The notes under the pieces: generated by a model
Told to the model about the DNA's origin: nothing
Database searches by the model: none
What the model saw: only the letters and a program-made list of their open reading frames with translations
Made by a program: the position numbers and the translations under genes
Assembly (NCBI GenBank): GCA_017437745.1
Contig: JAFRYI010000007.1
Coordinates: 62,001-126,000 of the forward strand
Direction: 5' to 3'
From: Bacillota bacterium
GTDB lineage: Bacteria > Bacillota > Clostridia > Peptostreptococcales > Anaerovoracaceae
Length of the DNA stretch: 64,000 nt
Shown: one piece after another, positions 6,472 through 46,930 of the stretch
Position numbering within the stretch: the first letter of the stretch is position 1
Layout of the letters: every line of letters begins with the position of its first letter

Positions 6472-8109
6472 TCAATGCGTTTGTTCCGCTATCTTTACAG
6501 CGATGCGTACGCCGTCGGCTGCCGCGGACATTATTCCTCCGGCGTAGCCCGCGCCTTCGCCCGCAGGGTAGAGGCCTTTGATCGCGGCGGTGTCCCCGGA
6601 AGGACCGGACGCGAAAGCTTCCAGCGTTTCCGGGTCTCTTTTTACGCGCACGGGGCTGCTGGAGCGGCTCTCGACGGCGGTCATGAGAGCGTCCGGCGAG
6701 TCGAAGCCTTTAAGCTTTCTGCCGAGTTTCGGCATGGCTTCGCGGAGAGCGCCGGAAACGAATCCCGGCAGGCATCCGTCTATGCCGGGCTGAGTTTTAT
6801 CCATGAAGGATCCTACTGTTTGCTTAGGCGGTTTTCCGCCTCCGAGTTCGAACGCCAGACGTTCGTACTTTTCCTGGAACGCCACGCCGGCAAGGGGGTG
6901 GTCGGAATCGTAATCTTCCGGCAGCACGTCCGCAAGCAGAGCGGAATTAGCCGTGCCCGAACCGCGGTCGGAGTTGCTCATGCCGTTGACGGCAAGCATT
7001 CCCGGAACCGAGGACGCGTCGATCACATAGCCGCCGGGGCACATGCAGAAGGTGTAGACTCCGCGTCCGGAAGCAGTCTTTACGTTAAGTTTGTAGTCCG
7101 CCGGACCTATGCCCAGCTCTTCGTGCGGAGCGCCGTACTGCGCAAGGTCTATCAGCCTCTGCGGATGTTCTATGCGAACGCCCATGGAGAAGGGCTTCTG
7201 CTCCATTCTGATGCCTTCCGCGCAGAGCGCGCGGATGGTGTCGCGGGCGGAATGGCCGAGGGCCAGTATCACAGTGTCTGTAACCAGCGTCTTCTCCGTT
7301 CCGTTCTGCATGTATCTAACGCCGCGCACCGCGCCGTTTTCGATAAGTACTTCCGTCAGCCTGCAGCCGAAGCGTACTTCGCCGCCCAGGGCTTCCGTAT
7401 TTTTGCGTAGGTTAACGACAACGCTGCGCAGGACGTCCGTCCCGATGTGCGGCTTCTGCTTTATCAGTATGTCCGGCGACGCTCCCGCGTCCACAAAGTT
7501 CTCCAGTATCCAGCGGGAGTAGGGCGACTTCGTGCCTGTGGTCAGTTTGCCGTCGGAGAAAGTGCCTGCGCCGCCCTCGCCGAACTGCACGTTGCATTCG
7601 GGATCCAGCGGTCCGCCGTTCCAGAAGCGCTCCACCGCAGCGACGCGTTCTTTCATGCGGCCGCCTCTTTCCAGGACTACCGGCCTAAGGCCGTATTCCG
7701 CCAGAGCCAGCGCCGCGAATATGCCGCAGGGGCCGTAGCCTACCACTATCGGACGGGGCACATCGTCTCCGCCGGTCGTTTTTGCTTCGCCGGGCTTCGC
7801 CTTCAGGTCGGAAGACGCTTCCGTATGCCTCTGTAACGCCCTTATTTCGAATCTGACGGGGTTTTCCGCGGTATACCGGGTATTTGTCCTATTGCAGGCT
7901 TCGATAAGCGATTCGTCCGTTTTTTGGCTTATGAGCTCCAGGCTGAACACACGGTAGAGCACCGGTTTTTCGCGCGCGTCCAGGGACTCCTTCACTATCC
8001 TTACGGAATCGATCGCGCCCAATTCAAGACCCAGCTGCCTTTCCGCTTTGCGGAGCAGCTTTCCCGTGTCCTGCCCAAGCTTAAGTTTTATTCCGTGGAT
8101 GATGATCAT
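6472..8109 (-). CDS. FAD-dependent dehydrogenase (COG2509-type NAD(P)/FAD oxidoreductase)
   Basis: The 545-residue protein has an N-terminal alpha/beta extension of about 115 residues, then the FAD-binding V-V-G-Y-G-P-C-G-I-F-A-A-L and an E-R-G-G strand end. Family signatures further on are F-G-E-G-G-A-G-T-F-S-D-G-K-L and, near the C terminus, G-L-Y-P-A-G-E-G-A-G-Y-A-G-G-I. These are typical of a widespread bacterial family annotated only as FAD-dependent dehydrogenase, with no established substrate. The ATG at 8109 follows AAGGAGACCGC. It is transcribed divergently from the flavoprotein at 8252. Confidence 0.82.
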   Translation of the reverse strand: MIIIHGIKLKLGQDTGKLLRKAERQLGLELGAIDSVRIVKESLDAREKPVLYRVFSLELISQKTDESLIEACNRTNTRYTAENPVRFEIRALQRHTEASSDLKAKPGEAKTTGGDDVPRPIVVGYGPCGIFAALALAEYGLRPVVLERGGRMKERVAAVERFWNGGPLDPECNVQFGEGGAGTFSDGKLTTGTKSPYSRWILENFVDAGASPDILIKQKPHIGTDVLRSVVVNLRKNTEALGGEVRFGCRLTEVLIENGAVRGVRYMQNGTEKTLVTDTVILALGHSARDTIRALCAEGIRMEQKPFSMGVRIEHPQRLIDLAQYGAPHEELGIGPADYKLNVKTASGRGVYTFCMCPGGYVIDASSVPGMLAVNGMSNSDRGSGTANSALLADVLPEDYDSDHPLAGVAFQEKYERLAFELGGGKPPKQTVGSFMDKTQPGIDGCLPGFVSGALREAMPKLGRKLKGFDSPDALMTAVESRSSSPVRVKRDPETLEAFASGPSGDTAAIKGLYPAGEGAGYAGGIMSAAADGVRIAVKIAEQTH

Positions 8110-8955: not shown

Positions 8956-9774
8956 TTACAGTATCTCTTTCGCGAACTGCTCCAGCGGGTTGTCCGCTAT
9001 CTCTTCTATGCGGCCTTCGTCAACTGCCTTCGCAAGTTCCGGGTCGATCGCCATCTCCGCCACGTGCGGGATTCCGTACTGCACCGCCAGCTTCTTAATG
9101 TGGCTCTCGCCGAAGGGGCGGATGATCTTTCCGCAGTCCGGGCACTTGATGTAGCTCATGTTCTCCACAAGACCGATCACCGGGATGTTCATCAGATTGG
9201 CCATCTTTACGGCCTTCTCGACTATCATTCCCACAAGCTCCTGCGGGCTCGTAACGACTACGATGCCTTCAAGCGGCAGACTCTGGAAGATGGTGAGCGC
9301 AACGTCGCCGGTCCCCGGCGGCATGTCTATGAACATTACGTCCTCGTCTTCCCACAGGACCTCGGACCAGAACTGCTTTACGACTCCGCCGAGTATGGGA
9401 CCGCGCCAGACGACAGGATCCGACTTGTCCTCCAGCAGCAGGTTGAGCGACACCACGTCTATGCCGAGTTTGGTGACGGCGGGTATCATGCCGGATTCGC
9501 TGCCGGCAAGCTGTTCCGTAAGTCCGAAAGCGGTAGGTATGGACGGGCCGGTTATGTCCGCGTCCATTACGGCTGTCTTAAGGCCCGCCTTTACAGCCGC
9601 GCATGCCAGCAGGCCGGTGATCATGCTCTTGCCGACGCCTCCCTTTCCGGAGACGACGCCGAATACTTTCTTTACGCTGGACTTTTCGTTTAGATATGCC
9701 CTGAAATCTGTCTCGGGGCGTTCGCCGCAGCCTTCCACGCCGCAGTTGGAACAATTGTGATCGCAGTCTGTCAT
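8956..9774 (-). CDS. mrp: Mrp/NBP35-type Fe-S cluster carrier ATPase
   Basis: The 272-residue P-loop protein has the deviant Walker A G-K-G-G-V-G-K-S at 43-50, D-A-D-I-T-G-P-S and F-I-D-M-P-P-G-T-G-D, and a C-terminal C-P-D-C pair, which binds the bridging cluster in the dimer. The N terminus carries four cysteines (4, 8, 11, 16), the Nbp35-like N-terminal cluster site found in archaeal and clostridial forms. It would hold and transfer [4Fe-4S] clusters; several Fe-S proteins are encoded nearby. The ATG follows AAGGAGGT with 7-base spacing. Confidence 0.92.
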   Translation of the reverse strand: MTDCDHNCSNCGVEGCGERPETDFRAYLNEKSSVKKVFGVVSGKGGVGKSMITGLLACAAVKAGLKTAVMDADITGPSIPTAFGLTEQLAGSESGMIPAVTKLGIDVVSLNLLLEDKSDPVVWRGPILGGVVKQFWSEVLWEDEDVMFIDMPPGTGDVALTIFQSLPLEGIVVVTSPQELVGMIVEKAVKMANLMNIPVIGLVENMSYIKCPDCGKIIRPFGESHIKKLAVQYGIPHVAEMAIDPELAKAVDEGRIEEIADNPLEQFAKEIL

Positions 9775-13901: not shown

Positions 13902-14464
13902 GTTTCGGGACCTTCTTTCTTAACGTTCTGTCTGTCGTTCGCGAATACCGGCCGCAGACGTTTGCAGAGGAAGGCAGCGATGAAGCCGCAGATGATGCCG
14001 CTGATGCAGGCTGTGCAGCAGTAGAGAGCAAGCACCGGTCCCACCAGGCCGAACACTATCACGTTGGCCGTAAGGCTTGCGGCAACGGAGGCCAGAGCGC
14101 AGCACACGACGATCTGCACGTCTTCGGACATGCCGGTCCGTCCTGATAGAAGCACGCAGAGGTCTATCACCAGGCCGGGGATAAGGTATCCCAGCGGCGC
14201 AAGCGCTCCCATGCTTCCTACGCTTCCCAGAAGGAATGCTATGCCGCTCTGTACCAGCCCCATAAGCATTCCCGCGCCGAACCGCTTAACGATAAAAGCT
14301 GCCGTTACCAGAAACAGCAGCGAAAAAGCAGTCCCGATCCCGCCGGGAATGTGGAGATTGTCCGTAATAAGGTTTGCCGCGGGCGCTATCAGCTTCTTCG
14401 CGATAATGCCAAGATCGCAGCATACGGCCATGAAGATAAGGTTCTTAAGGCTTATGCGCTTCAA
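13898..14464 (-). CDS. ECF-transporter S-component-like membrane protein
   Basis: The protein (188 residues from the TTG at 14464, 195 from a GTG at 14485) has about six hydrophobic segments with conserved glycine-rich loops such as H-I-P-G-G-I-G-T-A and G-A-L-A-P-L-G-Y-L. These resemble substrate-binding S components of energy-coupling-factor importers. The TTG is preferred because AAAAGGAAG precedes it; the GTG has no ribosome site. It is translationally coupled to the 147-residue gene and lies downstream of mobA, so a molybdenum-related or cofactor-related substrate is a reasonable guess only. No EcfA or EcfT gene is present in the window. Confidence 0.6.
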   Translation of the reverse strand: MKRISLKNLIFMAVCCDLGIIAKKLIAPAANLITDNLHIPGGIGTAFSLLFLVTAAFIVKRFGAGMLMGLVQSGIAFLLGSVGSMGALAPLGYLIPGLVIDLCVLLSGRTGMSEDVQIVVCCALASVAASLTANVIVFGLVGPVLALYCCTACISGIICGFIAAFLCKRLRPVFANDRQNVKKEGPET

Positions 14465-14609
14465 CTGATCTTCCTTTTCAAACACGGAAGGTCGGGTTGT
14501 TTCCGGCCCGGCCCCGGCCGGGGGACCGTAGCAGAAGCCTTAGGTCCGAGGGCTCGGAGGATCGTGTATTCGTTTTTTTCAGGGATATGTCCCTGATAAG
14601 GTCATTATA

Positions 14610-25293: not shown

Positions 25294-25418
25294 TGTGCCG
25301 GCCCGCAGCCGGGCTTCCGCGCAATAGGAATCTGCGAACCATGTCAGGTCCGGAAGGAAGCAGCATTAAGCGGAGCCGCCTATGTGCCGCGGGCAGAGCT
25401 CGGCTGCGGACCGGCACA
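25294..25418 (+). ncRNA. ffs: Signal recognition particle RNA, small bacterial type
   Basis: The core contains the invariant helix-8 region (ATGTCAGGTCC, the GGAA tetraloop, then GGAAGCAGCA) that binds Ffh. The ends pair: TGTGCCGGCCCGCAGCCGGGC (first 20 bases from 25294) with the GC-rich 3' arm ending at 25418. At about 125 nt it has only the S-domain hairpin and no Alu domain, unlike the long RNAs of Bacillus and many Clostridia. It sits before dnaX, a common placement. Confidence 0.93.
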
Positions 25419-29313: not shown

Positions 29314-30060
29314 TTATAGTTTTTTCAGATATTCCATTTCTGCCTGAGTAAGCTTCCGGTAGCCGCCTTCCTTCGTTCGCCCCAGCTTTATCTCTCCGAT
29401 GGCGGTACGCTGAAGAGCCAGCACTCGCAGCCCTATGGCCTCGGCCATCTTTCTTATCTGGCGGTTCTTGCCTTCGGATATCTTTATCTCCAGAACGCAC
29501 TCGCGCGCGGCCTGCGACACCATGGTAACGGAGGCGGGGCGGGTCTTGTATTTGCGCGTATAGCGTTTGCCCGTAGCGGGATCCTTTTCTTCCAGATCTA
29601 TCTCCACGCCGCTGCGCAGCATCCTCAGCTGCCTGTCCGTAGGCGTGCCGTTGAGCCTGGCAAGATAGGTCTTTTCCAGGTGGGAGGAGGGCTTTGCTAT
29701 GCGGTTGGCCAGCTCGCCGTCGTTAGTAAGGAGCAGCAGTCCGCAGCTGTCGTAGTCCAGCCTGCCTACCGGGAACACGTTTACGCTTACGTCAGAAAGC
29801 AGGTCCATGACAGTGGGTCTGCCTTTCTCGTCCTTTCTTGTCGTGACGTAGCCTGCGGGCTTGTTGAGCGCGTAGTAGCAGAGCTTCTCCGGCTCGGGCA
29901 GGGGCCTGCCGTTCACCGTTACTCTGTCGCCTTCCTGAACGTCGTATCCGGGTTCCTTAAGGACTGCGCCGTTTACCGACACATTACCGTTTTTTATAAG
30001 ATCGTCCGCGCCTCTGCGGGAGCTTATCCCCGCCTGCGCGATGTACTTGTTGAGTCTCAT
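29314..30060 (-). CDS. rluB: Ribosomal large-subunit pseudouridine synthase, RluB/RsuA family
   Basis: The 248-residue protein starts with an S4 RNA-binding domain (M-R-L-N-K-Y-I-A-Q-A-G-I-S-S-R-R) and continues with the catalytic G-R-L-D-Y-D-S-C-G-L-L-L-L-T-N-D, where the Asp is the nucleophile. The closing G-K-N-R-Q-I-R-K-M motif is typical. It modifies 23S rRNA uridines. The start follows AAGGAAGG. It is transcribed away from the AT-rich region at 30.2 kb. Confidence 0.93.
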   Translation of the reverse strand: MRLNKYIAQAGISSRRGADDLIKNGNVSVNGAVLKEPGYDVQEGDRVTVNGRPLPEPEKLCYYALNKPAGYVTTRKDEKGRPTVMDLLSDVSVNVFPVGRLDYDSCGLLLLTNDGELANRIAKPSSHLEKTYLARLNGTPTDRQLRMLRSGVEIDLEEKDPATGKRYTRKYKTRPASVTMVSQAARECVLEIKISEGKNRQIRKMAEAIGLRVLALQRTAIGEIKLGRTKEGGYRKLTQAEMEYLKKL

Positions 30061-30230: not shown

Positions 30231-30600
30231 AAAATAAATAAAACTTTTTTATTTTTGAATGGCAAAATGTTTACTGTGTAAAATTAACGATTCTGTGGAA
30301 AACTTGTGTATTGACAAATGGCTCGGCGCTGTTTAGCGTTGAAATCTCAACGGTTTTCAGCCATGGAAGTTTTCCACAGTTTTTGTTGAAAAAAAGTGGA
30401 AAACGATTTTTACACTTGTTTCGCGGGCTACCGATTTTCCGTTGAATTCAAAGGTTTTCCGGCTTGTTGATAATTGTTCGCGAACAAGTATTTCCCACAT
30501 GTGGATGTTAACATAATCGAATGTTCTTAAAAAAATATTTCCGTGGTTATTTCGGTTAATATTCTTTATGCCGAAACTGTTTCTGTGCATAAAAATCTGG
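30231..30600. other. AT-rich intergenic cluster of DnaA-box-like sites
   Basis: In an otherwise GC-rich window this gene-free stretch has an A/T run (30231-30260) and four exact matches to TTWTNCACA: 30275-30283 and 30294-30302 (both reversed), 30370-30378, and 30584-30592 (reversed, TTATGCACA). One-mismatch sites lie at 30395-30403, 30408-30416 and 30491-30499. A 14-bp perfect palindrome lies at 30474-30487. This is the make-up of an origin or a DnaA-binding locus. No dnaA or dnaN is near, and gene direction does not switch clearly here, so the role is open. Confidence 0.45.
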
Positions 30601-30622: not shown

Positions 30623-30651
30623 TTGACGCTGGACCCCGGAAAAGCTATAAT
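30623..30651 (+). promoter_or_regulatory. Promoter of pyrR-uraA
   Basis: TTGACG (30623-30628) and TATAAT (30646-30651) are 17 bases apart; transcription should begin near 30658, giving a leader of about 100 nt. Confidence 0.8.
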
Positions 30652-30675
30652 ATCCGTAGGAAAACATATCTTTAA

Positions 30676-31310
<635 letters not shown>

Positions 31311-46667: not shown

Positions 46668-46682
46668 CGAAATACAAATCAC

Positions 46683-46850
46683 TGTTCAGGTGCCCCGGCG
46701 CTGCCGGGGATAATAGGGAAACGGGTGCAAATCCCGTACGATCCGGTCACTGTAACGGAGAGCTTAAGCGCAACATGCCATTGCCTTAAAGGTGAGAAGG
46801 CGCGCCACGCGAAGACCCGAAGTCAGGAGACCTGCCTGAACGGAACGATA
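46683..46850 (+). promoter_or_regulatory. Cobalamin riboswitch
   Basis: The leader has the conserved parts of the B12 aptamer: AGGTGCC at the start, GGGAAACGGGTGCAAATCCC, GGTCACTGTAACGG and the B12 box AAGTCAGGAGACCTGCC (46820-46836). The outer stem pairs TTCAGG (46685-46690) with CCTGAA (46835-46840). It precedes a BtuFCD-like importer. A terminator at 46931 is the likely expression platform, so transport should be off when cobalamin is plentiful. Confidence 0.92.
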
Positions 46851-46930
46851 AGTATCTTCCGGAGAAAGTATCTTGTCTGAACATGGTTTTTCGAGCGGGC
46901 TTTTTGAGTTCGCAGGACTACGATGATCTG

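Follow-up and report, generated by a model that had tools for sequence, protein, structure and literature searches.

A conserved DnaA-box element of the Anaerovoracaceae that looks like an extra-origin replication-control site

A DnaA-box cluster between rluB and pyrR

The window, the whole 64-kb stretch of DNA that was analyzed, contains an intergenic region between rluB and pyrR in which four exact TTWTNCACA DnaA boxes lie within 318 bp. The 370-bp region around them has a GC content of 34%, compared with ~56% for the window, and five exact sites were found in the whole window against 1.68 expected. When this AT-rich region was itself dinucleotide-shuffled 5,000 times, no shuffle reached four exact sites (the maximum was three, obtained once); since the region's own shuffles never match it, AT-richness alone was ruled out as the cause of the cluster. 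The box cluster described in the original prediction is therefore real, and the near matches claimed with it are present as well (Table 1). The conserved part of the region is narrower than had been proposed, spanning ~30275-30499, so that the outlying exact box and the A/T runs fall outside it. The flanking genes had been correctly named, but the description of genes on both sides as mostly pointing the same way needs care, as the immediate neighbors are divergent.

Table 1. Features of the element and its surroundings in the window
Feature	Position	Strand	Basis or remark
rluB, left neighbor	29314..30060	-	S4 + PseudoU_synth_2 domains
DnaA box TTTTACACA, just left of core	30275..30283	-	exact match; absent from family consensus
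Conserved element, model R1 match	30283..30498	+	121 bits
Conserved element, model R2 match	30290-30489		98 bits; sole strong match in genome
DnaA box 1, TTTTCCACA	30294..30302	-	exact match; nearly invariant across family
TTGACAA motif	30311..30317	+	TTGAC conserved 8-10 bp past box 1
Central palindrome CGTTGAAATCTCAACG (family consensus CTTGnAATTnCAAG)	30337..30352	.	alignments
DnaA box 2, TTTTCCACA	30370..30378	+	exact match; 76 bp start to start from box 1
Weak DnaA box TTTTCAACA	30384..30392	-	near match; aligns with TGTGGATAA position of relatives
Weak DnaA box TTTTCCACT	30395..30403	-	near match
TTTTACACT	30408..30416	+	near match; near site of ATTGTATACAAT in most other genera
DnaA-box-like TTATCAACA	30465..30473	-	near match at conserved TGTtGAaAA position
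Closing palindrome GTTCGCGAAC	30476..30485	.	alignments
Near-match box TTTCCCACA	30491	+	near match
Exact box TTATGCACA, outside conserved element	30584..30592	-	exact match
Sigma-70-like promoter TTGACG-17-TATAAT, probably pyrR's; outside element	30623..30651	+	context
pyrR, right neighbor	30759..31310	+	Pribosyltran domain and position

The draft genome (1.63 Mb) has 74 exact TTWTNCACA sites, and clusters of at least three exact boxes in ~400 bp occur only at the two halves of oriC (contig C18) and at the present site (contig C19). A similar box density elsewhere, which the original prediction had named as evidence against itself, was seen genome-wide only at the oriC halves, and the site is a beyond-chance box cluster outside oriC, as the term extra-origin DnaA-box cluster requires. 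The cluster is part of an element of ~200 bp whose layout is fixed: two outward-facing boxes 76 bp apart enclose a TTGAC motif and a TTGAAATTTCAA-type palindrome and are followed by more boxes and TTCGCGAA. No conserved -10 sequence was seen by eye after TTGACA in the family alignments, and a promoter reading of this motif was rejected. The sequence TTAACATAA at 30508 resembles half a dif site; the second half was not seen, and this candidate was dropped.

Downstream of the element, positions 30623-30760 hold a sigma-70-like promoter with perfect spacing and then a leader resembling a PyrR-binding site (28 bits against Rfam RF00515, below the threshold of 54), which suggests pyrimidine attenuation of pyrR. 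Elsewhere, the window carries a cobalamin riboswitch (46671-46853, +), a molybdenum cofactor riboswitch (14455-14571, -), and a small SRP RNA ahead of dnaX (25308-25407).

The element and the chromosomal origin

The dnaA gene lies on contig C18, with boxes upstream (7668-7762) and downstream (9251-9291) that form a bipartite oriC; the oriC of B. subtilis is likewise bipartite, with boxes on both sides of dnaA (PMC5295017). GC skew passes from slightly negative values ahead of dnaA to positive values beyond it, a turn that is thinly sampled because only ~8 kb of C18 precedes the gene. At the element, cumulative GC skew has no turning point and rises through the site on C19, so the skew turn beside dnaA that marks an oriC is missing there. 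Boxes are found without the conserved AT-rich unwinding region that would adjoin them at an origin: in many relatives a coding sequence starts about 20-60 bp away, leaving the element alone to fill the intergenic space, with little room for unwinding. A second or back-up origin, to which a box array in AT-rich DNA might point, is therefore very improbable, and we rejected the element as an origin on the grounds of oriC at dnaA, the turnless skew, and the lack of a conserved AT-rich flank. The origin option of the original prediction was not borne out, while its own doubt on this point was upheld by the location of dnaA and by the cumulative skew.

Conservation across the Anaerovoracaceae

In a relative from the same genus, the region upstream of rluB has two boxes that also face outward and also start 76 bp apart. 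The pattern TGTGGAAAA-N52-82-TTTTCCACA was present in 32 of 297 family genomes from 13 genera, including 10 of 11 from the window's genus, and the reversed control pattern in 1 of 297. The cores found in this way were mostly 82 to 86 bp long, with TTGAC 6-8 bp past the first box and the CTTGnAATTnCAAG palindrome in mid-core; a few matches without TTGAC or the palindrome, some of them origins, were left out of the set. Conservation extends rightward through further boxes, a TTGAAAtt motif, TGTtGAaAA, and TTCGCGAACAAA.

A sequence-only model (R1) built from 20 elements matched 264 of the 297 sampled family genomes, representing 80 of 92 genera, at an E value of ≤1e-3. About 226 of the 264 matches had E values of ≤1e-7, beyond the reach of the window genome's oriC, and those between 1e-7 and 1e-3 may include cross-matches to origins; model E values are rough, the family sample carries no phylogenetic weighting, and most of the genomes are draft or metagenome assemblies. 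R1 scored element loci at 26 to 146 bits, lowest in genera remote from the training set, and oriC loci at ≤26 bits, mostly through partial alignments to the model. In a sample of the order (394 genomes), the only two matches beyond the family came from family f9. A second model (R2), built from 51 diverse elements and run on 391 genomes of the class, gave E values of ≤1e-9 for eight family members, while the other matches were weak (≥3e-7) and mostly partial; with looser filters it found the element in 23 of 24 chosen family genomes, including several missed by R1, and in both f9 genomes. A named Family XIII contig bears the element, and an rluB-based scan of named genomes, which reached mostly distant relatives, returned it at only two loci. 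The element is almost absent outside the sampled family, which is taken to be the Anaerovoracaceae (Clostridiales Family XIII) from that contig and the closest rluB matches.

The window genome has a single copy, the next-best R2 match being at oriC with 25 bits, and one copy per genome is usual across the family. Genus g71 (G071, G165, G193, and G129; loci L159, L170, L157, L172, L161, L171, L155, and L169) has two extra strong copies far from oriC, which in three closed genomes lie on opposite arms and each point with the fork; one extra copy adjoins a whiA-like gene. One other genome carries a tandem pair ~2 kb apart (G196:C1:4605871-4608079) and a third copy elsewhere.

Intergenic conservation together with an inverted repeat might also point to a noncoding RNA or leader, and the region gave a sub-threshold Rfam match to STnc410 (24 bits; threshold, 50). 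RNAalifold predicted 0 consensus pairs on the 51 elements, the region had no Rfam match at threshold, and DnaA boxes on both strands make up the conserved words. We rejected a structured RNA, and the RNA reading as a whole appears highly unlikely.

Three observations point indirectly to DnaA as the protein bound. First, the strongest conserved words of the element are DnaA boxes. Second, the proportion of TTT to TTA boxes in the element varies with that in oriC among 34 genomes (Spearman rho = 0.74, P = 4e-7, uncorrected for kinship or base composition). In genome G126, the element and oriC both use TTTTGCACA, which in its relative G067 occurs on both sides of the element. Third, the central palindrome is shared with some origins: exact TTGAAATTTCAA is present in 5 of 40 oriC loci, and in 4 it lies no more than about 25 bp from an exact box. 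In the window genome, the 389 kb examined contained only two exact copies, so nothing points to a regulon, and TTGAAATTTCAA as the site of a genome-wide regulator was rejected. These copies lie after a tRNA gene and after guaA beside an integrase-like gene, settings that resemble terminators or integration sites. At the former (C19:264205-264323; L031:4205-4323), the tRNA gene is followed by a long, perfect, terminator-like palindrome, CCCCTTGAAATTTCAAGGGG, which shares the element's central palindrome. At the latter (C18:91880-93514; L016:11880-13514), excisionase-like and tyrosine-integrase-like open reading frames (ORFs) directly follow guaA, with TTGAAATTTCAA ahead of them, and probably represent a mobile element integrated at the guaA 3′ end.

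A second palindrome, centered on GTATAC and typically ATTGTATACAAT, follows box 2 in 36 of the 51 aligned elements. It looks element specific, since TTGTATACAA/GA had zero occurrences in 691 kb flanking the elements in 20 genomes. It is prominent in most of the family and missing in the window's clade (g1, g46, g67, g70, and g44). In G196, GCATGC replaces GTATAC; the symmetry of this change would suit a putative dimeric binding protein. A literature search on DnaA in Anaerovoracaceae and on TTGTATACAA returned nothing relevant.

Neighbors, direction, and proposed role

The nearest flanking ORFs occur in all four orientation combinations (20, 16, 14, and 12). In most of the window's genus, rluB and pyrR adjoin the element; many other genera have an alanyl-tRNA-editing-like gene and a gene without a Pfam match in their place, and others have an amidase gene. 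A protein of ~400 to 430 amino acids with the motif NTRLMGV is encoded to the right in many genera (L166, L160, L152, L158, and L284); one member that was scanned had no Pfam match. These data bear on the idea that the element is a site through which DnaA regulates transcription of its neighbors, here rluB and/or pyrR. The divergent arrangement in the window's genus would suit such a role, and B. subtilis DnaA does act as a transcription factor at intergenic sites (PMC4447404). However, neighbors and their orientation change between genera while the layout of the element stays constant, and in G067 and G070 it sits beyond the 3′ end of the right-hand gene. Because neighbors differ between genera, regulation of pyrR and rluB is unlikely to be the sole role, and we regard the transcriptional reading in general as quite unlikely.

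Where dnaA shares a contig with the element, 20 of 22 copies face in the direction of fork travel if the two arms are taken as equal. In 20 drafts, orientation agrees with local GC skew in 17, disagrees in 2, and meets a skew of about zero in 1. The copies are not independent for these counts, since many probably descended in place. Such a bias, left unexplained by the orientation of flanking genes, could reflect a chromosome-organization or fork-related site (segregation, fork pausing, or passage sensing) at which direction matters, DnaA is one of several proteins, and initiation control is secondary; a palindrome with no occurrence in the flanking DNA would be in keeping with this. Direction exceptions (G231, G270, and G076), copies that are mostly single and far from the terminus, and DnaA boxes as the strongest conserved words speak against it, and we consider it unlikely.

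The element is probably an extra-origin DnaA-binding replication-control locus of the Anaerovoracaceae, with control of initiation via DnaA as its main role. Of the options in the original prediction, a DnaA-binding control or titration site is the best-supported reading because the architecture is conserved family-wide; DnaA occupancy, partner proteins, and an effect on initiation are inferred. DnaA would first occupy boxes 1 and 2, which face outward, and next the weaker boxes on their right, and one or more partner proteins would bind the palindromes between boxes and shape the complex. The complex might take DnaA from oriC by titration or alter its ATP/ADP state; because replication would reach the element at a fixed interval after initiation, the element would feed back on initiation timing. 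Several findings count against a control locus: the direction bias is partly inherited in place, ATTGTATACAAT is missing in the window's clade, the element adjoins two genes in the window's genus whose expression could be affected, and the main copy lies anywhere between about 8% (G088) and 38% (G161) of the chromosome away from dnaA, whereas datA and DARS keep a conserved relative distance from oriC.

The element can be placed in the loosely defined class of extra-origin DnaA-box clusters, although its architecture is more constrained than that term implies. In B. subtilis, deletion of six such clusters (DBCs) is reported to lead to early initiation (Okumura et al. 2012, as cited in PMC5295017 and PMC13220808). 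In both cases, DnaA boxes cluster away from oriC in a genome of the Bacillota; the present element differs in being usually single copy, fixed in spacing, equipped with extra palindromes, and family-wide. E. coli datA, which uses IHF and promotes DnaA-ATP hydrolysis (PMC13220808, PMC4585315), is also a noncoding multibox DnaA locus away from oriC with a site for another protein (predicted here), and some family genomes place the element about 8 to 10% of the chromosome from oriC; its other motifs differ from those of datA, and this distance is not kept. DARS1 and DARS2 of E. coli likewise combine a DnaA-box core with further sequence or protein-site needs and are lineage conserved and off oriC. 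DARS2 needs Fis and IHF sites (PMC4585315), whereas the other motifs here are TTGAC, two palindromes, and TTCGCGAA. The element may work like datA/DARS or the B. subtilis clusters, a likeness of proposed working and not of sequence relation. We do not file it as datA or DARS because their position rule does not hold and the biochemical likeness is putative.

According to a 2026 review, B. subtilis lacks datA and DARS, and it is unknown whether the species has regulators that balance DnaA-ATP and DnaA-ADP (PMC13220808). The element seems to be a previously undescribed site with a part in the timing of chromosome replication. More tentatively, and with some doubt, it could be a family-wide DnaA-cycle control locus in Bacillota at which dedicated partners of CTTGnAATTnCAAG (shared with some origins) and ATTGTATACAAT act, DnaA is switched or sequestered, and fork direction matters, making it an independent counterpart of datA/DARS. 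A precisely spaced, family-wide, usually single-copy Clostridia element is a small, deletable candidate for DnaA-ATP/ADP control that can be tested in vitro, and its palindromes (ATTGTATACAAT and CTTGAAATTTCAAG) offer bait for putative replication regulators. If the proposal is true, a counterpart of datA/DARS would have evolved independently in a phylum whose model species is without them.
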